Below are positions 565 to 37,059 of a stretch of 37,701 nucleotides of DNA, piece by piece. Origin of the DNA: a virus. The stretch spans positions 1 through 37,701 of the IMG/VR virus record IMGVR_UViG_3300031707_000076, one strand, 5' to 3'. A program made the translations under genes and the position numbers. How positions within the stretch are numbered: position 1 is the stretch's first letter; every line of letters starts with the position of its first letter. A model generated the notes under the pieces. It searched no databases and had not been told where the DNA came from. It was given only the letters and a program-made list of their open reading frames with translations.

Positions 565-990
565 ATGGGCGGACCAATCGGAAATAAACATGCTTTAGGT
601 AATGATGGCGGTAGGCCGCTTGAATGGACCTTGGAAAAAATAAAAGATCTTATATCTAAACTCAATGAATGGGTTGCTAAAGAAGACTCACTTGTCCTTA
701 TGGAATTTTGTTGTGAAAATAAAGTAACAAATAGACAACTTCATTACTTAGTGGATAATAATGAGGAGTTTAGGGAAGCTTTATATTTTACGAAAGGTCA
801 ATTAGCTGTAAAATTAGGTCGTAGATTAAACAAACGTCAAGACTTACACCCAGCATTTTATCATCGCTATATACGATACTACGATCACCTTTTGCATGAG
901 TTCGAAAAAGAATGTAAACAAGTAGAATCTTCCATAACCGCTGACCAAATAGAATACAAATGGGCAGAAGATGGAGAAACCAAAGAATAG
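565..990 (+). CDS. terS: Terminase small subunit (gp3-like DNA-packaging protein)
   Basis: The frame is open from ATG 538, but I prefer ATG 565: it has GAGG nine bases upstream, and the product then begins MGGPIGNKHALGNDGGRP, the usual start of gp3-type packaging proteins; ATG 538 has no ribosome site. The 141-residue product has a helical central part that would include the DNA-binding helix-turn-helix, and an acidic tail. The family recognises viral DNA and feeds it to the large subunit at the portal. Its end overlaps the large-subunit start by 20 bases, consistent with coupled translation. Confidence rests on the N-terminal motif plus the position directly before terL. Confidence 0.8.
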   Translation: MGGPIGNKHALGNDGGRPLEWTLEKIKDLISKLNEWVAKEDSLVLMEFCCENKVTNRQLHYLVDNNEEFREALYFTKGQLAVKLGRRLNKRQDLHPAFYHRYIRYYDHLLHEFEKECKQVESSITADQIEYKWAEDGETKE

Positions 991-3469
991 CATTGTTGCT
1001 TCTTCTCCTTTTATCCCTCGTAAGTACCAAAGAGATTTTGTACAAGCGATGGAAAAAAAGAAGAGGGGAGTCCTTTGCTGGGCTAGACGACATGGAAAAG
1101 ATCTAGCTTGTTGGAATTTCCTAATCAAGAATGCTTGGGAAAAGAAGGGCGTCTATTACTATATATTTCCTGAATACTCTCAAGCTCGTAAAGCCCTTTG
1201 GGACTCCATTACTGAAGATGGTATAGCCTACGTCGATTTCGTTCCCAAAGTCATGATTTCTAAAAAATGGAATCATGAGATGAAGATATCTCTTCTCAAC
1301 GGTTCCATTATACAAGTTATAGGTTCTGACAACAGCGATGCCATTCGTGGTGGTAACCCTTGCGGTGTAGTCTTCTCAGAATATGCCTATCAGAACCCTA
1401 AGATATGGGAAATGATAGTAGACCCTATCCTTACCAAGAACGGAGGATGGGCAGTCTTTAATTCTTGTGTGATAGGGAATACACTAATTTTAACAGAAAA
1501 TGGGTTTGAGAGAATAAAACGTGACTTTCCATTAGGATATTCAGATATAGATGAAAAGATTTTTGGATTGGGTGGTTTTCACACAGCAGAAAAATATTAT
1601 CGTTCTATAAAAAGAGGTACGATCATAATTGAAACAATGCGAGGGTATAAAATTGAATGTACTCCAGAACATCCCTTATGGAATGGAAAAGAATGGATAA
1701 AAGCACAAAATTGGAAAGTCGGAAACTTTATTCCTATTCAAAGAAATCAACAAATATTCGGAAAAGAAATAAAATCGAATTGGAGATGTAAAAAAAGAAA
1801 AAGTTTCAAAGATAGTTGGTATAACATAAATGAGATTAATGAAGATTTTGCTTATTTTTTAGGATTGTATTTATCGGAAGGAAGTGTAAGAAAAAACGAA
1901 GTTACTATAACGAACTTCGATAAAGAAATAGTTGAATGTTTATCAACCAAATGGTTTGCATCGAACGACGGAATGGGACATAACAGGATTTTTTCTAAAG
2001 AATTGGCTGACTTCATATTTCAAAGCGGTTTAGGATTGGGAGCAAAAAATAAGACTATCCCAGACTTCATTTTACATCTTCCAAAAAAAGAATTAAGCGC
2101 TTTTTTAAGTGGATATTTTGACGGTGATGGAACTTCCTATAAAGGAAGAATTTCTTGTTGTTCAGCTTCTGAAAAGTTAATGCAAGATTTACAAGTTATT
2201 CTATTAAATTATGGCATTGTATCAACCAGAAAAAAAATCCTTACTCCACCAACAAAGAAAGTAAAAAAAAGTTGTATTTCTTGGAGATTAGAGTTAGATG
2301 GATACAATGCTTATTTATTTTATACTCAAATAGGATTTAAAATCCTACGAAAACAAGATAAAAAGGAAAATCTTATAGGAAAGGCAACAAAGTTTTGGAA
2401 TGATTTTTCTAATATATCTAAAAATAAAATTATTGAATTGGGGAAAAAAAGAAGTTGGTTAAAAAGACAGAACAATATCACATATTATACACTTAAAGAT
2501 TTATGCGGTAACGATATAGAATTAAAAAAGGTATTAACTGATAATTTTTACTGGGATAATATAAAAAGCATTACAAATGGTGAAGCAGAGGTATATGATT
2601 TTGTAATTCCCGAAACTAATTCCTTTTTCAGCAATGGTTTTGTTAGTCACAATACGCCTAATGGTAAAAATCATTTCTTCGATCTTTATTCCTATGCCCT
2701 TGCGAATTCTGAAGAATGGTTTGCATCAAAAATAACAGCTGAAGAGTCAAAACTGATTTCCAAAGAAGAGATCGAAAAAAAACTATCGCAAGGTTTTTCT
2801 GAAGATATCTTAAATCAAGAGTGGTTTTGCTCATTTGAATCCGGGGTTGTTGGTTCCTACTATGGTAAATATATAAAAAATATGGAAAAAGAGGGAAGGA
2901 TTTGTTACGTGCCTTACGACAAAAATCTTCTAGTTTATACTGCATGGGATCTTGGTTTCTCAGATGCTACATCTATTATATTCTATCAAAGAAGGGGTAA
3001 TGAGGTTCTTCTTATAGATTGCTATGAGAATCAAGGATACCACTTGTCTCATTACTTGGATCATTTGAGACAGAAAGATTATGCCTATGGAGGCCATTAT
3101 ATACCTTTTGACGGTAAGATGCACGATAGGACAGGAACTACTTTTCAAGATGTTGCAAGAGACCTAGGATACCAAATGACGGTACTTCCTAAGGAAAGAT
3201 CTATATTTGAGGGCATTGAAAGGGTGAGAGGTATGTTCCCTAGGTTTTTTATAGATAAGACTAAATGCGACTATCTAATGAAGTGTCTTATAGGATACCA
3301 CGCCGAATATGATGAGAAAGCTAAGGTGTATAAAGATGTACCTAAGCATGACTGGACTTCCCATTTAAGTGACGCATTACGCTATATGACCATGGCTATC
3401 AACCAGTTCACAACAACATCTATGTCCAAAGAAAAACTTGATGAGCTTAAGAAAGAGTTCCAATTTTAA
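971..3469 (+). CDS. terL: Terminase large subunit precursor with in-frame intein
   Basis: The precursor has 832 residues; removing the intein (residues 166-561) leaves a 436-residue packaging motor, normal for the family. The N-terminal ATPase shows a Walker A-like ARRHGKD (38-44) and a Walker B-like GVVFSEY (132-138) with Ser-Glu in place of the usual Asp-Glu. The C-extein begins TPNGKNHFF, so the joined text FNSTPNG is the ATPase coupling motif. The RNase H-like nuclease follows, with Asp660 in TAWDLGFSD and Asp801 in HLSDALRY as likely metal ligands. It overlaps terS by 20 bases, and its stop overlaps the convergent 3466-3732 gene by 4 bases. Confidence 0.93.
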   Translation: MEKPKNSIVASSPFIPRKYQRDFVQAMEKKKRGVLCWARRHGKDLACWNFLIKNAWEKKGVYYYIFPEYSQARKALWDSITEDGIAYVDFVPKVMISKKWNHEMKISLLNGSIIQVIGSDNSDAIRGGNPCGVVFSEYAYQNPKIWEMIVDPILTKNGGWAVFNSCVIGNTLILTENGFERIKRDFPLGYSDIDEKIFGLGGFHTAEKYYRSIKRGTIIIETMRGYKIECTPEHPLWNGKEWIKAQNWKVGNFIPIQRNQQIFGKEIKSNWRCKKRKSFKDSWYNINEINEDFAYFLGLYLSEGSVRKNEVTITNFDKEIVECLSTKWFASNDGMGHNRIFSKELADFIFQSGLGLGAKNKTIPDFILHLPKKELSAFLSGYFDGDGTSYKGRISCCSASEKLMQDLQVILLNYGIVSTRKKILTPPTKKVKKSCISWRLELDGYNAYLFYTQIGFKILRKQDKKENLIGKATKFWNDFSNISKNKIIELGKKRSWLKRQNNITYYTLKDLCGNDIELKKVLTDNFYWDNIKSITNGEAEVYDFVIPETNSFFSNGFVSHNTPNGKNHFFDLYSYALANSEEWFASKITAEESKLISKEEIEKKLSQGFSEDILNQEWFCSFESGVVGSYYGKYIKNMEKEGRICYVPYDKNLLVYTAWDLGFSDATSIIFYQRRGNEVLLIDCYENQGYHLSHYLDHLRQKDYAYGGHYIPFDGKMHDRTGTTFQDVARDLGYQMTVLPKERSIFEGIERVRGMFPRFFIDKTKCDYLMKCLIGYHAEYDEKAKVYKDVPKHDWTSHLSDALRYMTMAINQFTTTSMSKEKLDELKKEFQF
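1466..2653 (+). mobile_element. Intein with LAGLIDADG homing endonuclease inside TerL
   Basis: The element covers 396 residues, Cys166 to Asn561 of the precursor. Splicing features are all present: Cys1 (start CVIGNTLI), block B TPEHP with its histidine (residue 234), a C-terminal VYDFVIPETNSFFSNG segment ending His-Asn, and Thr562 as the +1 nucleophile. The central part carries two endonuclease motifs, FLGLYLSEG (297-304) and FLSGYFDGDG (378-387), with acidic residues in both. This is what a bifunctional class 1 intein looks like, so splicing and homing activity are both plausible. It is inserted at the ATPase coupling motif, a highly conserved site typical of intein targets. Confidence 0.92.
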
Positions 3470-4339: not shown

Positions 4340-4657
4340 CTAGTTTCTATATTCTACTTGTTTGGATCTTCTTGTTTCCCAAGCTTTCTTTGCAGCATCG
4401 CTTCTTGATAAACCAACCATAGGAAGTTCCATTTGCGGTCTAACATCATTACCCAATAGGATGCGTTCCTTTAGTTCATCCAAGGTTCTTTTGGTATCTG
4501 AAAGTTCTTTTCTCATTTCTTGTTTAAATTCTATTAATTCTTTCTCCATTGATTCTATTTTATTTGGCAATCTGTTGGATCTTAAAATAACAAAAACAAA
4601 ACCTATAAAACTAGATAAATAGATCGCTAGTAAAAATATTTCTTTATCAATTAACAT
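4340..4657 (-). CDS. Membrane-anchored coiled-coil protein, 105 aa
   Basis: Residues 7-26 (IFLLAIYLSSFIGFVFVILR) form one membrane helix, followed by a heptad-like charged region (about 34-70) that should form a coiled coil, and a basic tail with AAKKAWETRR. The start has its ribosome site inside the last codons of the upstream DUF551 gene (CCA AAG GAG TAA C ATG). It has the same plan as the other array members (short N-terminal anchor, cytoplasmic coiled coil) but lacks the FHGRLC peptide. It is the last gene of the minus-strand array starting at 6209. Confidence 0.7.
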   Translation of the reverse strand: MLIDKEIFLLAIYLSSFIGFVFVILRSNRLPNKIESMEKELIEFKQEMRKELSDTKRTLDELKERILLGNDVRPQMELPMVGLSRSDAAKKAWETRRSKQVEYRN

Positions 4658-5532: not shown

Positions 5533-5730
5533 TTATTTCCTTTTCTCCTCTATGGCGCATAATCTTCCGTGGAAATCTTTCATCTCTTCACGTATTGCAT
5601 TAAGGATAGCATCCGTCCTGGCTTCCATGTGTCTATAGTCTGCTCTAGATTCAGTCCTATTCCAAAAGAACAGTGGAATAATCAATGCAGCGTTTCCTAG
5701 TATAACTCCTAAAACTGTAGTCCATTCCAT
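5533..5730 (-). CDS. FHGRLC-family small membrane protein, copy 3 (65 aa)
   Basis: I start it at ATG 5730 (MEWTTVLGVILG); an upstream ATG at 5790 only reads back through the previous gene. The membrane helix is about residues 6-22, then FFWNRTESRADYRHMEAR, TDAILNAIREEMK and the end DFHGRLCAIEEKRK. A 26-base stretch spanning its start and the end of copy 4 (5721-5746) is repeated exactly at the copy 2/copy 3 junction (5522-5547). Confidence 0.78.
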   Translation of the reverse strand: MEWTTVLGVILGNAALIIPLFFWNRTESRADYRHMEARTDAILNAIREEMKDFHGRLCAIEEKRK

Positions 5731-5731
5731 A

Positions 5732-5983
5732 TTATTTCCTTTTCTCTTCGATAGCACATAGTCTACCATGGAAGTCTTTAATTTCCTCACGTATTGCGTT
5801 AAGACTAGTCTGCATTGTAGTCTCTAGACTTCTGCAAATATTTAATAAATCTTTCCGATCTTCTCTTTGAGTATTTTGAAGTTCTCTTCTGTCAGCATTT
5901 GCTTCTGATCTCATCCAAAAGAATATTGGAAGAAATAATGCAGCATTTCCAATTATAATTCCTAATACTATAGTCCAATCCAT
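5732..5983 (-). CDS. FHGRLC-family small membrane protein, copy 4 (83 aa)
   Basis: Start MDWTIVLGIIIG with one membrane helix (about 5-23), a longer charged linker (RSEANADRRELQNTQREDRK), and the unchanged family end IKDFHGRLCAIEEKRK. The linker differs completely from copies 2 and 3, while the helix (IIGNAALFLPIFFW) matches copy 3 (ILGNAALIIPLFFW). Thus ends are conserved and the middle varies. The ribosome site AAGGAGAAATGAT overlaps the stop of the upstream gene. Confidence 0.75.
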   Translation of the reverse strand: MDWTIVLGIIIGNAALFLPIFFWMRSEANADRRELQNTQREDRKDLLNICRSLETTMQTSLNAIREEIKDFHGRLCAIEEKRK

Positions 5984-23451: not shown

Positions 23452-23679
23452 TTATTTTTTCTCCTCTAATTTATTAACTTTAACTTCCAAACCAGAAAGT
23501 CTACCTTGAAAGTTCATATTCCAGTCATGAAGTTCTTTGGTTAACGAATCGAATTTACTATCTAAAGATCTATAATCTGATCTGGATTCGGTTCTCACCC
23601 ATATAAATGCACCAATAATTGTAACTAAAATAACAATAAATTCTAGGTGTGCTTTAAAAACAACTTTTGTACTTTCCAT
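23452..23679 (-). CDS. FHGRLC-family membrane protein, diverged copy 5 (75 aa)
   Basis: Membrane helix about residues 13-28 (FIVILVTIIGAFIWVR), then RTESRSDYRSLDSKFD matching copies 1-3, and an end NFQGRLSGLEVKVNKLEEKK in which FHGRLC has become FQGRLS. It links the 23-25 kb array to the 5-6 kb array. The junction with the next gene is nearly identical to that at 23677-23694. Confidence 0.68.
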   Translation of the reverse strand: MESTKVVFKAHLEFIVILVTIIGAFIWVRTESRSDYRSLDSKFDSLTKELHDWNMNFQGRLSGLEVKVNKLEEKK

Positions 23680-24698: not shown

Positions 24699-24899
24699 TC
24701 ATTCCTCCTTTTCTAACCTGTTCCTTTCATATCCATCTTGCGCATCTGCAACATTGCGCATAGCGAGTAAAAATAGGGTAATGGATTCTTTATCTACTTT
24801 AAGACTTTCTTCCCAAACAGCATTTAGATAGGCTACAGCTACATCTTGATCTTTAAGCTGTTCTATTAACCAATCTTGGTATTTTTCACTTTTTTTCAT
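24699..24899 (-). CDS. Antitoxin-like fragment (HigA-type addiction-module N-terminus), 66 aa
   Basis: The stretch YQDWLIEQLKDQDVAVAYLN, with LFLLAMRNVADAQDG after it, matches the N-terminal part of HigA-like addiction-module antidotes, which normally continue into a Cro-type helix-turn-helix; here the protein ends after about 15 more charged residues. It may be a stand-alone domain or an antitoxin remnant. No toxin gene is next to it. The end (RLEKEE) encodes the ribosome site for the regulator downstream. Confidence 0.6.
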   Translation of the reverse strand: MKKSEKYQDWLIEQLKDQDVAVAYLNAVWEESLKVDKESITLFLLAMRNVADAQDGYERNRLEKEE

Positions 24900-25146
24900 C
24901 TAGTCTATCCGAATGAACGCAATATGTTTTCCCTTCCCATTTTTTATCTGCATACCCTTCAAGATATGAAAGTCTAGCATTCATAATTTTTAATTCAGTT
25001 TCTATTTTTTCGAATCGTTGATCTACTTTATCAAATCGTTTATCTATTAAATGATATATCCATCCAAGTATTCCTACTATTGGAACTAAAATAGATCCTA
25101 TTATCGTAACTATTTGGGTTACACTTATCATTTGTGGTTCAGTCAT
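24886..25146 (-). CDS. Membrane-anchored coiled-coil protein, 86 aa
   Basis: One membrane helix (about 11-31, IVTIIGSILVPIVGILGWIY), then a heptad coiled coil (IDKRFDKVDQRFEKIETELK, MNARLSYLEG) and a polar tail. The MNARLSYLEG box is common in phage and prophage anchored coiled coils. It overlaps the antitoxin-like gene start by 14 bases. Unknown function. Confidence 0.65.
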   Translation of the reverse strand: MTEPQMISVTQIVTIIGSILVPIVGILGWIYHLIDKRFDKVDQRFEKIETELKIMNARLSYLEGYADKKWEGKTYCVHSDRLDEKK

Positions 25147-32095: not shown

Positions 32096-32983
32096 ATGGT
32101 TTATAATAATGCAATAAATAAATCGGTGAAAGTTACTAAATATACTGCAAGTGGCACTTTTACGATGGATCCTAGAACGGCAATGGTTGAAGTACATGTT
32201 TTAGGTGGCGGTGGCGGTGGCGGCTCTGGACGTCGAGGAGCATCAGATGCTGCTTTTGGTGGTCAGGGTGGCGGTAGTGGAGGTTATAGTTGGGGAAATA
32301 TTCCTGCTTCTCAAATCAGTAGTCCTGTAACTATAACTGTAGGTGCAACTGCTGCCGGAGGTGCAGTTCAAACTACTAATAGTACAAATGGAAATACCGG
32401 AACTGCTGGTGGGGCTTCTTCTTTTGGATCACTACTTTCAACTACAGGAGGCGGTGGAGGTGGAGGTGGATGGGGTACATCTGGTGCTGCTTATGGAGGT
32501 TTTTATGGTAATGGATTTATTGTAGGAACTTCTGGTGGACCATCAGCAGCTCCTGGAACAGGGATGGGCGAAGAGGGAAGAATGTTTATATTTAATACTA
32601 CATGCAGAGCTTCTGGATCGGGTGGCGGTGGCGGCCAAGCAAGTTCTGGTACTGAATATGCCGGAGGACCAGGAGGACCTGTTTATTTAGGTTCACCAGC
32701 TATCTCTACTTTAATTTATGCAGGCGGGACTGCAGGTTGGGAAAGTGGAACAATAAATGGTGGAAATGGAACAAGTGTATCAACAGATTTTCCATTTTGG
32801 GGTGCTGCGGGTGGCGGTGGCGGTGGCGGCCAAAAAGCTGGAGCAGCAGCTGGTACCGGAGGTAATGGAGGAACACCTAGTGGTGGCGGTGGTGGCGGTG
32901 GTGGCTCTCTAAACGGAACAAATAGTGGGGCTGGTGGAATTGGTGCCCGTGGTGAAGTTTGGGTTATTGAATATTTCAATTAA
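32096..32983 (+). CDS. Glycine-rich tail-tip adhesin-like protein, 295 aa
   Basis: A folded start (VTKYTASGTFTMDPRTAMVE) leads into long glycine runs (GGGGGGGSG, STTGGGGGGGGW, GGGGGGGGSL) separated by variable short segments, ending in GARGEVWVIEYFN. This pattern matches the Gly-rich domain of phage adhesins such as S16 gp38, where polyGly helices pack in a sandwich and the loops bind receptor. It is last in the tail operon, a usual adhesin position. GGTGGC runs at 32203-32223, 32810-32830 and 32881-32907 could recombine. Confidence 0.7.
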   Translation: MVYNNAINKSVKVTKYTASGTFTMDPRTAMVEVHVLGGGGGGGSGRRGASDAAFGGQGGGSGGYSWGNIPASQISSPVTITVGATAAGGAVQTTNSTNGNTGTAGGASSFGSLLSTTGGGGGGGGWGTSGAAYGGFYGNGFIVGTSGGPSAAPGTGMGEEGRMFIFNTTCRASGSGGGGGQASSGTEYAGGPGGPVYLGSPAISTLIYAGGTAGWESGTINGGNGTSVSTDFPFWGAAGGGGGGGQKAGAAAGTGGNGGTPSGGGGGGGGSLNGTNSGAGGIGARGEVWVIEYFN

Positions 32984-33500: not shown

Positions 33501-33890
33501 TCATTTCGGAAGGTATGTAATGGAATGGCCGTTAATAATTTTATCTGATTTTTGGTACCCAGAAAAGCCTTCATTAGCTTTTTCAAGGTTTAATACAAAA
33601 ATAAACATTTGATCTTTTCCATAACCTTTTTGTATTTTTTTTATGAAATTTCTATTAACAAGATTAGTTATAGTTTTAGAAATAGTATCTTTTGATAAAC
33701 ACGCATGAATTTCAAATTCATCAAGAAATCCCATTGAAAATGATGCATATCCATCTTTTTGAGATCTTTTTATAATAAATAATAAAACTTTAATTTCTGA
33801 ACAATTTAAACAACACAACCATCTATCAAAAAACTCATTTGGAACCAAAAAAGCGTTTGAAGCATTAAATCCTGAAAAATTACTCAACAT
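33501..33890 (-). CDS. Winged-helix replication-associated protein, 129 aa
   Basis: The layout FFDRWLCCLNCSEIKVLLFI, then a helix pair HACLSKDTISKTITNLVNRN and wing FIKKIQKGYGKDQMFIFVLN, is that of the winged-helix domain at the N-terminus of phage replication initiators. It overlaps the upstream replication gene by seven bases. It may help load the initiator or regulate the early operon. No helicase-loader motifs are present. Confidence 0.6.
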   Translation of the reverse strand: MLSNFSGFNASNAFLVPNEFFDRWLCCLNCSEIKVLLFIIKRSQKDGYASFSMGFLDEFEIHACLSKDTISKTITNLVNRNFIKKIQKGYGKDQMFIFVLNLEKANEGFSGYQKSDKIINGHSITYLPK

Positions 33891-35140
33891 ATTAATCCCA
33901 TCTTTTTCAAATTATTTTTTACTTTAGCCAGAAACATTGGGGTAGGATCTTTTTTATTAACAAAATCTCCAGGATTTGTTGGTCCATAAATGAAATGAAT
34001 TCCGTCAATGAGGATAACTATATCACCCTTTTGGATTTTTTCTGAAAATGTATTTTCTATGTCCTTCATTATATTTTCATTAGATTTTATACTTTCTTCA
34101 TTGATTTTATACTTATCTTTCGAAGGATTAGACATTTCAAGCTCTAATCTATCAAAATGTTTTCTTAATTTCTCAGGAGATAAAATATTTTTCTTCCAGA
34201 AATTATCTATTTTCAAATAATTTATTACTTTTTCTATTTCTTCAGGAGATCGCTTATCTACTCTTAAGATAAGATCGAATGTATCTGACCATTTCTTGAG
34301 ATCCGGATTTTTGACTTTAGGTATTATTTCTTTGATATGTTTGAAAAGTTCTAAAGCGAAGGCGCATGCCGTAGCGTTTTGTATTTCCTGTTTGGAGTTT
34401 TGAACATCGATCTTTTCTTTGTATATTTCTTTTTCTTCTTGTTTATCCTTAACAATTGCTAATTCTTTATCGTCCGCCAAGCCAGGGGCCGCGCTCACAG
34501 GATTCTGGCCTACGTGTTCAGAACGAAGATTTTTGCCCTCTTTTTCAGAGTTATGAACAATTTCAGGGTTTATAGTTTCTTTGGGAGCAAAATCATGCGC
34601 AGGATTCTGGCCTACGTGTTCAGAACGAAGATTTCCTATTTGTTCATATCTTTTTTCTGACTTATCTTTTTTTAGATTTTTTTTGAATTTTGGACTTTCA
34701 GAAACGAAATATTTACAACTCTGTCGAATAACCTGACCTTTTGAATTTCTGACAAGATTTACTTCTTTTTTTAGATATCCTGCTGATAGCGCCTCTTCTA
34801 TGTACTCATAAACCCTATCCCTTCCACAATATTCAACTCCTTTCAGATGATTTATTATATGCTGCGTTTTTATCACAAACCCTTCCGTATTAGTGAGAAG
34901 ATATATTATTAACCAACGGCATGTAGGAGAAATACTGTTATCTCTTATCAAATCTCTGCTAATCATTACATAGGGATTTTCTTTGTCATGAAGACATCTT
35001 TGATAAGTATCATTTGATGAATCTACAATATTGTCAGTGTTTTGCGTTAATTTTTGATTTTCTTGAGAAAGTTCTTGCGAATTATTATCTTTAGACTCTA
35101 CATTAGCTATCATGTTTGATCTCGTGGTAGGGGTTAACAT
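33884..35140 (-). CDS. Replication initiation protein, lambda-O-like organisation, 418 aa
   Basis: ATG 35140 is chosen because GAAAGGAAATTAAC precedes it; a TTG at 35266 would add 42 residues without a clear site. Residues about 55-150 form a winged helix (YVMISRDLIRDNSISPTCRW, TQHIINHLKGVEYCGRDRVY, YIEEALSAGYLKKEV), followed by a charged linker (150-260) with the repeated peptide NLRSEHVGQNP and a helical C-terminal part that could bind a host helicase or loader. No polymerase or helicase is recognised in the phage, so it should recruit host replication proteins. Confidence 0.65.
   Translation of the reverse strand: MLTPTTRSNMIANVESKDNNSQELSQENQKLTQNTDNIVDSSNDTYQRCLHDKENPYVMISRDLIRDNSISPTCRWLIIYLLTNTEGFVIKTQHIINHLKGVEYCGRDRVYEYIEEALSAGYLKKEVNLVRNSKGQVIRQSCKYFVSESPKFKKNLKKDKSEKRYEQIGNLRSEHVGQNPAHDFAPKETINPEIVHNSEKEGKNLRSEHVGQNPVSAAPGLADDKELAIVKDKQEEKEIYKEKIDVQNSKQEIQNATACAFALELFKHIKEIIPKVKNPDLKKWSDTFDLILRVDKRSPEEIEKVINYLKIDNFWKKNILSPEKLRKHFDRLELEMSNPSKDKYKINEESIKSNENIMKDIENTFSEKIQKGDIVILIDGIHFIYGPTNPGDFVNKKDPTPMFLAKVKNNLKKMGLIC
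34498..34532. repeat. 35-bp direct repeat in the replication gene, copy A
   Basis: Identical to 34600-34634, copies 102 bases apart and in frame, encoding NLRSEHVGQNP twice. It contains GTTCAGAAC, close to a palindrome. The surrounding stretch has visibly more G+C than its neighbours. Possible initiator-binding site, as the lambda origin lies within gene O; a simple coding duplication is the alternative. Confidence 0.7.
34600..34634. repeat. 35-bp direct repeat in the replication gene, copy B
   Basis: Exact second copy of 34498-34532. The intervening 67 bases are less conserved at the protein level (a charged linker). Confidence 0.7.
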
Positions 35141-35319
35141 GTTAATTTCCTTTCTTTGATGTCCTTGCCGGGATGCATCAAAGTTTTGAGTTAGAGGCCT
35201 CATCATCTGATGGGGCCATTTTTTTATAAAAGCCTCAGCATTAAAAAAATCCCTTTTTCTTAGCAAGCTTTTTCCGTAAATTTAAAAATTTAAATGAACT
35301 ATATTAAGAAATGTTTAAG

Positions 35320-35354
35320 ATGAAATAAATATTTCATTAAGAATATAAATTCTT
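35320..35354. promoter_or_regulatory. Two adjacent operator-like palindromes
   Basis: ATGAAAT-AAAT-ATTTCAT (35320-35337) and AAGAAT-ATAA-ATTCTT (35339-35354) lie side by side. The second ends exactly at the -35 element of the small RNA promoter, so a bound protein would affect that promoter and possibly the divergent replication gene. The rest of 35141-35319 is AT-rich leader. Confidence 0.5.
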
Positions 35355-35384
35355 TTGCAAGAATCTATTTTTTTTAGGTATAGT
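35355..35384 (+). promoter_or_regulatory. Promoter of the small RNA
   Basis: TTGCAA (35355-35360), an 18-base spacer and TATAGT (35379-35384) give a good sigma-70 promoter reading plus-strand, toward the 3' end of the exonuclease gene. Expected start near 35390. Confidence 0.62.
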
Positions 35385-35389
35385 AAAAG

Positions 35390-35470
35390 ATGAAAGGTGG
35401 CTTCATCTCCCCTTTCAACTCTGTGTGAATGACAGATGGAAGACCCCGTCTAAAAAACGGGGTCTTTTTA
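35390..35470 (+). ncRNA. Candidate small RNA of about 80 nt, OOP-like in position
   Basis: Between a good promoter and a strong terminator are only about 80 bases and no convincing gene. Three hairpins are visible: GATGAA/TTCATC (35389-35394 with 35402-35407), TCTGT/ACAGA (35420-35424 with 35432-35436) and the terminator. It runs against the early operon, between the exonuclease and replication genes, as lambda OOP RNA does between cII and O. It could base-pair with the early mRNA across this junction. No known RNA family was recognised by sequence. Confidence 0.62.
35440..35470 (+). terminator. Strong intrinsic terminator of the small RNA
   Basis: AAGACCCCGT (35440-35449) and ACGGGGTCTT (35457-35466) form a 10-bp GC-rich stem with a 7-base loop, directly followed by the T-run ending at 35469. 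The U-tract lies on the plus strand, so it stops plus-strand RNA just before the exonuclease stop codon at 35471. Confidence 0.85.
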
Positions 35471-36337
35471 TTATGCAACAATATCTATCTTTCGATAGAC
35501 AATAGGTTTCTTTCTGAATGAATTAAGAACTTCTTCACTGATAGCAAATTTTAAACACAAAGGCTTAAGATCAACCGCACCATCTTTATGTATAGTGGAT
35601 ATCTTTATGCCTCCTTTAGGACAGAATACATTGCCTTCATCTGTAAGGTCTATTAACTGCTGTTTTATTATTTTCTCTTTTTCATCTAAACTCTTTTGTT
35701 CTTCTTTAACTTTACGATATTCTTTAGATGCACTTATCATTTCCTCAGAATCCACAAGGACATAGTCCTTTTCACTAATAGGAGGTGGGTAATCGTTTAT
35801 AAGACAGTCGTAAAACTCTGAAGCTTTTTCCAACATTTCTTTTTGAAACTCTAAATCAGGCACAACTTTTAAAAGAACTGTACGTCCATCATCTGCACAA
35901 TAAGCAAAGAAATCTGCTGTTGCAGCATCAGACACCAATAACTGCCATTGCATTTGAGCAAGATAATAGTCAGGAATTCCTTTTCTCTTTATGGATTCAT
36001 AGGAACCCTTAGAAACCACTTTTATTTCAACCAAATGTTCTCCATTTAAAGTTAACCCATCAAGACTAGCCATTGCCCAATCAACCTCTTTATGGAACTT
36101 TATACTAGGAATAACATCAATACTAGTCATACCTGTATACATAGATCTCACCATCTCTTCTTCTTCCTTACCTCTTTTCATAAAGAAGGTAGCTTCTCCT
36201 TCTTTTATTCGATTTGTTTTCTCCAGCCATAACTTGTATGCAGTCTTCCAAGGAGATATCCCCATAATAACAGGAATATCAGAAGATCCAATCTTAGATT
36301 TTCTAAGATCTAGCCATTCCTTACTTCCTTGCTCCAT
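35471..36337 (-). CDS. YqaJ-type phage exonuclease
   Basis: 288 residues. The start GSKEWLDLRKSKIGSSDIPV with GISPWKTAYKLWLEK is the YqaJ/lambda-exonuclease-like opening. The PD-(D/E)xK core is visible: Asp93 in SLDG, Glu104 and Lys106 in VEIK, and the QMQWQ helix near 128. This enzyme resects DNA ends to feed the annealing protein encoded just upstream, together forming a recombination pair. The ATG is two bases after the annealing-gene stop; AAGGAGTCAATTA overlaps the end of that gene. Confidence 0.88.
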   Translation of the reverse strand: MEQGSKEWLDLRKSKIGSSDIPVIMGISPWKTAYKLWLEKTNRIKEGEATFFMKRGKEEEEMVRSMYTGMTSIDVIPSIKFHKEVDWAMASLDGLTLNGEHLVEIKVVSKGSYESIKRKGIPDYYLAQMQWQLLVSDAATADFFAYCADDGRTVLLKVVPDLEFQKEMLEKASEFYDCLINDYPPPISEKDYVLVDSEEMISASKEYRKVKEEQKSLDEKEKIIKQQLIDLTDEGNVFCPKGGIKISTIHKDGAVDLKPLCLKFAISEEVLNSFRKKPIVYRKIDIVA

Positions 36338-36338
36338 A

Positions 36339-36992
36339 TTAATTGACTCCTTTTTCCGTGATCTTTCTTTCTAAAGCCTGTTTTACAGCCAAAAACTTTA
36401 AAGAAGGTATTTTTTCTACATCATCTACCTGACACCAAGAAAGCATCTTTTCTTGATCGACTGTATTTAATTGCTTAAAAAGTTTATCCAATTCTTTCTT
36501 TTGCGCAGGATTAATGGTCTGAGGGTTTTCTCTTGACATAGCCTTTTCTCCATCATCATCATCACTCTCAGAAGATACCCCTACCAAAGAAATGTAACTA
36601 TAACGTCTTAAATAGGAAATATAGCTACCGATAGATTGGATATCAGACTTGGGAGGATTAATAGGCATCTTGGACTCGATCCATTGGCCGCTTGCATGAC
36701 ATAATCGAGTATATAAGTACATCTTAGCATCTCCATTGGTGTCTGTACGTTGCATGACAGCTAATCCATTTTTAGTAAGAGCTGGCCTAGATGCTTTGAT
36801 AACTGAATTCAAATCGGCATAGCTACTTTTGAAATAAGGATTAGAGCTATCCATAGATGCACTTTCCATTTCACCTTGAGCTTTTGCTAAAGCAGCATAG
36901 AGCTCATTTAATTCATTAGACCATTTTGGTTCATGAACCTTTTCTGGCATTACAAATATATTCTCATTATTGTTTAAAACTTCTTCATTCAT
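36339..36992 (-). CDS. erf: ERF-family single-strand annealing protein
   Basis: 217 residues from ATG 36992, which has AGAGGTCTTT just before it (an earlier start at 37040 has no such site). The signature LYAALAKAQGEMESASMD, NPYFKSSYADLNSVIKASRP and LTKNGLAVMQ defines the ERF family, and the GSYISYLRRYSYISLVGV segment is the conserved second block. The C-terminal part (after about 150) is a flexible link plus helical domain. It anneals single strands exposed by the downstream exonuclease, supporting circularisation or concatemer formation. Confidence 0.9.
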   Translation of the reverse strand: MNEEVLNNNENIFVMPEKVHEPKWSNELNELYAALAKAQGEMESASMDSSNPYFKSSYADLNSVIKASRPALTKNGLAVMQRTDTNGDAKMYLYTRLCHASGQWIESKMPINPPKSDIQSIGSYISYLRRYSYISLVGVSSESDDDDGEKAMSRENPQTINPAQKKELDKLFKQLNTVDQEKMLSWCQVDDVEKIPSLKFLAVKQALERKITEKGVN

Positions 36993-37059
36993 AAAGACCT
37001 CTTTTGTTTTCTTAATATATTCGCCTACACTTCGTAGCACAAGTCGAATGTTGCTTTAC

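Follow-up and report, generated by a model that had tools for sequence, protein, structure and literature searches.

A predicted antisense RNA gene between yqaJ and an O-like initiator gene

The stretch of DNA analysed here (the window) is a 37.7-kb phage contig, IMG/VR virus record IMGVR_UViG_3300031707_000076, positions 1-37,701. A 330-nt gap separates the stop codon of its yqaJ recombination gene (35471) from the start of its O/DnaD-like replication initiator gene (35140), both on the minus strand, and within this gap a promoter, a structured RNA and a strong terminator are predicted on the plus strand. The reading that we favour with moderate confidence, judged from the sequence, is that these make up a gene for an OOP-type antisense RNA, which curbs the O-like initiator through pairing, convergent transcription or both. 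A comparable unit occupies this position in distant uncultured relatives, and its probable role is therefore to restrain phage DNA replication, as has been proposed for the OOP RNA region of phage lambda.

The predicted promoter (TTGCAA-18-TATAGT, 35355-35384) is the top-scoring plus-strand promoter of the gap, with the -35 box TTGCAA at 35355-35360, an 18-nt spacer, and the -10 box TATAGT at 35379-35384. Starting 7 nt past the -10 box and ending at a T tract, the predicted plus-strand RNA would be about 81 nt long (35391-35471). It folds into hairpin 1 (GAAAGG..CCUUUC, 35391-35417), hairpin 2 (UCUGU..ACAGA, 35420-35436), and the intrinsic terminator T2 (35440-35473), which has a 10-bp G+C-rich stem and a 7-nt loop (AAGACCCCGT/ACGGGGTCTT, 35440-35466) followed by a TTTATTAT tail. 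T2 is strong (stem -14.9 kcal/mol in our own scanner) and ends at the yqaJ stop codon. The fold of 35390-35475 beats shuffled sequences (z = -5.4), and the body with the first two hairpins alone (35390-35438) gives z = -2.35. A first-pass annotation of this DNA, made from the sequence alone, had described just such a unit: the same promoter, two hairpins and a 10-bp GC-rich terminator with a U-tract in about 80 nt, opposing the early operon between a recombination gene and an O-like gene. Promoter coordinates, fold, terminator scan and flanking genes all bear out that description, as they do the palindrome that it placed against the -35 box.

This AT-rich palindrome (AAGAATATAAATTCTT, 35339-35354) is the sole exact AAGAAT-N4-ATTCTT in the window and is possibly an operator or UP-like element. 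With up to two mismatches it has 14 copies in the window vs 9.7 by chance, which is about chance level, and it was not spotted by eye upstream of the promoters of relatives. Three further readings of the same interval were considered. The predicted RNA begins almost at an ATG, so that a leaderless 12-codon open reading frame (ORF), MKGGFISPFNSV, can be read at 35390-35428 (plus strand), probably by chance. A minus-strand leader peptide in hairpin 1 (MKPPFIFYYT after GGGGAG) was rejected since the spacing is too short. The 35440 stem was likewise rejected as a sense terminator of yqaJ, because the minus strand has no T tract. In L048, L050, L051, and L090, loci of relatives described below, a sense-strand terminator follows soon after the yqaJ stop codon, where the window has the antisense-oriented one.

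When promoters with a terminator 35-200 nt downstream were scored as a combination, the gap stood out from 2000 dinucleotide shuffles (p = 0.0005). Over the whole genome, four combinations on the plus strand reached the score threshold, three of them in the O leader, compared with one on the minus strand. By themselves, sigma-70-like sites in the region are not clearly above background (15 found vs 10.3 +/- 3.1 expected).

Similar units precede O-like genes in relatives

Relatives, mostly uncultivated phages, were reached through their proteins: major capsid protein (MCP), YqaJ, ERF, and above all O. With start codons picked by rule, at most 340 nt preceding each O start were taken as the leader and scanned on both strands, which gave 30 leaders, or 29 after removal of one duplicate. 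An antisense-strand unit was present in 28 of the 30 O leaders, vs 2.8 expected from shuffles, and a sense-strand unit in 6 of the 30. With the score threshold set at 16.9, 26 of the 29 O leaders passed, compared with 5 of 76 other intergenic leaders from the same phages (Fisher p ~ 2e-16); two of these five are O with another start, and one belongs to a divergent gene across the same gap. Additionally, antisense promoter strength across the leaders exceeds that of shuffles (combined p = 6.5e-6), in contrast to the sense control (p = 0.59), and the transcribed bodies are more structured than shuffled sequences (mean z = -1.77, n = 23, p = 6e-6).

The promoters resemble each other in type. The -35 box TTGCAA recurs in the window, L154, L162, L163, L181, and L058, and TTGCGC or TTGCAC (TTGCRC) is found in L155, L159, and L055; the -10 boxes in relatives are TATAAT, GATAAT, and TAAAAT. 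The gene upstream of the gap changes size and strand among relatives while O is constant, and the element therefore goes with O rather than with YqaJ. In two leaders, L090 and L156, a second stretch immediately preceding the O Shine-Dalgarno sequence is complementary to the 5' arm of the hairpin, so that either strand could adopt alternative pairings. The one MCP match in cellular genomes fell on a further contig, L145, which is short and binned as a Lokiarchaeota metagenome-assembled genome, and its MCP is 74% identical to that of the window; it is probably a mis-binned viral contig.

Two subgroups were aligned. The antisense promoter is conserved as TTGCAA-16-TATAAT in L162/L163/L181 and as TTGCRC-17-GATAAT in L155/L159/L055, and both subgroups also keep the 3' side of the terminator with its T tract and, beyond the terminator, an opposing sense -35 box, TTGACA. 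Between these conserved ends the transcribed body diverges in both. In L162/L163/L181, 16 of 38 predicted pairs are changed at both positions in one or more of the sequences, although three sequences are too few for a claim of covariation. This pattern is one of the relatives, the window itself being without a close relative. Conservation in relatives, which the first-pass annotation had named as a test of its proposal, was found for the architecture (the 26 leaders above, with the recurrent TTGCAA-type -35 box); sequence conservation does not extend to the hairpins of the RNA body.

Conserved ends around a fast-diverging body are as expected of a cis-antisense RNA. They fit less well with a trans-acting small RNA directed at host or other phage mRNAs, for which an independent unit that carries two hairpins and ends in its own terminator might otherwise speak: a body that diverges among close relatives while the ends are kept is unlike a conserved seed, and no second match to the hairpin-1 sequence was found in the window. 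Trans action is thus very unlikely in our estimation.

A second terminator and the weight of the evidence

A second plus-strand terminator, T1 (35196-35226), which the first-pass annotation did not mention, sits closer to O than T2, 56-77 nt upstream of the O start. The best promoter matches upstream of it, TTGATA-18-TACAAT at 35000 and TTGAGA-17-TATCTT at 35063, both lie inside O. It is possible, therefore, that a second antisense unit starts inside O and uses T1, and the family ortholog might be this T1 unit, which would span the O start region and end at about 35226, with the T2 unit as a tandem copy or remnant. T1 lies near the family range of distances to O, the plus-strand promoter matches just inside O score 8.4-8.7, and tandem antisense terminators are present in relatives too (two in L050 and L058, three in L049). 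However, the coding sequence that holds those promoter matches is A+T-rich and contains several of the kind, and the recurrent TTGCAA-type -35 box belongs to the T2 unit. The T1 unit thus suits the family better by distance to O and the T2 unit better by promoter type; that T1 marks the ortholog is a serious possibility, but one we hold to be somewhat doubtful.

Alternatively, since the late operon and the early genes are convergent, T1 and T2 may serve just to end late plus-strand transcripts that run antisense into the early genes, with the promoter-like site arising by chance. Its end at 32983 overlaps the converging early gene at 32980 by 4 bp (32980-32983), which leaves no room for a terminator; going downstream from there on the plus strand, non-coding space of any size is first met in the O-yqaJ gap. 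The window promoter taken alone is at chance level (p = 0.14). This explanation would not account for the antisense promoters of relatives, which beat shuffles where the sense strand does not and form a conserved block in two subgroups, nor for the structure of the transcribed bodies. It is therefore considered unlikely.

The weakness of the window promoter counts against the antisense RNA gene as well, and so do several other points. Promoters were scored as sigma-70-like, and the preferences of the host may differ. The score threshold and the relaxed terminator rule behind the count of 26 leaders were fixed after some loci had been seen. Since the leaders fall into clusters and are not fully independent, they amount to fewer independent cases, which we put at perhaps 18-20. 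The window unit lies about 215 nt from O, with T1 in between, vs the usual 11-76 nt, and longer distances among relatives are those of L179 (139 nt) and L187 (210 nt). DNA-level searches were also negative: blastn of 33800-37000 against sequenced phages gave no DNA match, the gap DNA had no match in 42 related contigs, and the exact hairpin-1 sequence was absent from IMG/VR viral contigs.

Control phages and homology searches

At the protein level, tblastn against sequenced phages returned distant DnaD/O-like proteins only. An Rfam scan of the unit gave nothing at gathering score, and the sub-threshold matches look like generic terminator matches; the lambda oop region had no Rfam match either, and hence Rfam holds no usable model for a homology test. 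The same promoter-terminator scan recovered the annotated oop of P22 as a positive control: the -35 box begins at 32374, the edge of the promoter as annotated, and the terminator falls inside the annotated terminator. In lambda, tO was found, but the combination scores 14.9, under the threshold, because the promoter match is weak. Six cultured phages with DnaD/O-like initiators (SpaA1, 055SW001, NrS-4, HB10c2, Dulem 30, and EH-TP1) were also scanned; none passes the threshold (best score 15.8), and in five of the six the gap before the initiator is shorter than 100 nt. Therefore, the arrangement is not universal.

Comparison with OOP and a possible mechanism

The predicted unit resembles lambda OOP (pO-oop-tO) in that a short terminated RNA runs away from O, opposing the early operon, just upstream of an O-type initiator. 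In lambda, however, the upstream gene is cII, which OOP overlaps by 52 nt and on whose mRNA it acts (PMC5869508), with an RNase III-dependent mechanism suggested (PMC5869508; PMC3985674), whereas in the window the upstream gene is yqaJ and the RNA stops at its stop codon. No sequence similarity of the window unit to lambda OOP was detected. The position of lambda OOP, to which the first-pass annotation had likened the unit, is thus matched in architecture, as an antisense promoter and terminator before O, and not in the cII overlap. Since that overlap is lacking and homology could not be shown, we do not assign the unit to the lambdoid OOP family. P22, a lambdoid temperate phage unlike the window in this respect, likewise has an annotated oop promoter and terminator ahead of gene 18, its O-like gene, from which the promoter is 114 nt away, and OOP-BTP1 of prophage BTP1 was detected by RNA-seq (PMC7067206).

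Countertranscripts to replication initiators are also described outside phages. RNAII of pMV158 is a countertranscript to initiator mRNA that limits initiator synthesis (PMC4485353), although there it serves plasmid copy-number control and another initiator family. Similarly, an antisense RNA of Bacillus subtilis overlaps the 5' untranslated region of dnaA (PMC12112137), in that case with a chromosomal initiator in another context.

The gap in the window has no strong sense promoter or sense terminator, and O is thus presumably expressed through read-through of the early operon. What the sequence shows is the anatomy of the unit, the non-random combination of its promoter and terminator, and the enrichment of such units before O-like genes; beyond this, we infer transcription of the unit, its target, the pairing step, and the sign of regulation as follows. 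Host RNA polymerase would start on the plus strand at about 35391, and the RNA of about 81 nt, ending at about 35471, would be complementary over its entire length to the yqaJ-O intercistronic part of the early mRNA, which is read from the minus strand. The complementarity follows from position, and the presence of this stretch in O mRNA depends on read-through. RNA:RNA pairing could lead to RNase III-type cleavage between yqaJ and O, or could decouple O from the operon. Alternatively or additionally, polymerases leaving 35391 would meet those heading for O, and such convergent transcription could stall early transcription before O and the putative origin inside it. In either case, less O-like initiator would be made or delivered to the origin. 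Pairing and interference are not separable here, but a body that is structured yet diverges, flanked by ends that are conserved, speaks for pairing in cis. Antisense action on the early mRNA, one of two roles suggested in the first-pass annotation, thus gains support at the level of architecture. In lambda, pO activity lowers pR transcription towards the origin, and inactivation of pO raises pR transcription beyond pO and impairs replication, which has been read as polymerase interference (PMC3985674).

The other suggested role, in origin function, fared worse. The unit adjoins the initiator gene, and OOP was once proposed as a primer (PMC3985674), so that the transcript might prime or activate replication, or the hairpins might serve as a single-strand initiation site. 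However, the primer role of OOP was deemed unlikely by later work (PMC3985674), and the gap has no strong repeat cluster. An exact 35-bp direct repeat inside O (34498-34532 and 34600-34634) offers better candidates for iterons and an origin, comparably placed to the iterons inside lambda O. An origin function of the unit is accordingly held to be improbable.

Genomic setting

The O-like/DnaD-like initiator gene, presumed to be the regulated gene, spans 33884-35140 on the minus strand (PHROGs 2514, 391, and 4880) and starts at an ATG with an AAAGGA Shine-Dalgarno sequence. Immediately upstream of the latter is a further hairpin, CTTTGATG..CATCAAAG (35154-35183). The upstream neighbour in the early operon is the YqaJ/RecE-like exonuclease gene (35471-36337, minus strand; PF09588, phrog_434), and ERF, YqaJ, and O follow each other in this order on the minus strand. 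Protein matches also identified a P22-type portal and a major head protein. Among the 30 window proteins scanned, no integrase and no cII-like gene were seen, and the only repressor match was a weak Arc-like one.

The contig ends overlap by about 127 bp with one mismatch near the edge, and the genome is therefore probably circular or terminally redundant. Elsewhere, the terminase-like protein of 971-3469 contains a LAGLIDADG endonuclease and an intein splicing domain (PF14528, PF14890). The small protein of 24068-24697 matches the RNA polymerase alpha C-terminal domain (PF03118) and, weakly, a sigma factor; it is possibly a transcription regulator. Four small minus-strand ORFs (4340-4657, 5533-5983, 23452-23679, and 24886-25146) are alike in having one membrane helix followed by a coiled coil and, judged by eye, are a possible paralogue family.

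Significance

What pO/OOP does in lambda replication is a long-standing question (PMC3985674, PMC5869508), obscured in part by the further action of OOP on cII. Phages that share this arrangement but have no adjacent cII would separate both roles and make the hypothesis of replication control directly testable. Tentatively, and with less confidence than we place in the reading of the window itself, an unannotated, broad class of antisense RNAs may guard O/DnaD-type initiators in uncultivated phages without adjacent cII; the ancestral role of pO/OOP would then be countertranscript control of replication, and the action on cII in lambda would be derived. The finding would also mean that many uncultivated phage genomes have, in their early region, an RNA gene that annotation has missed.
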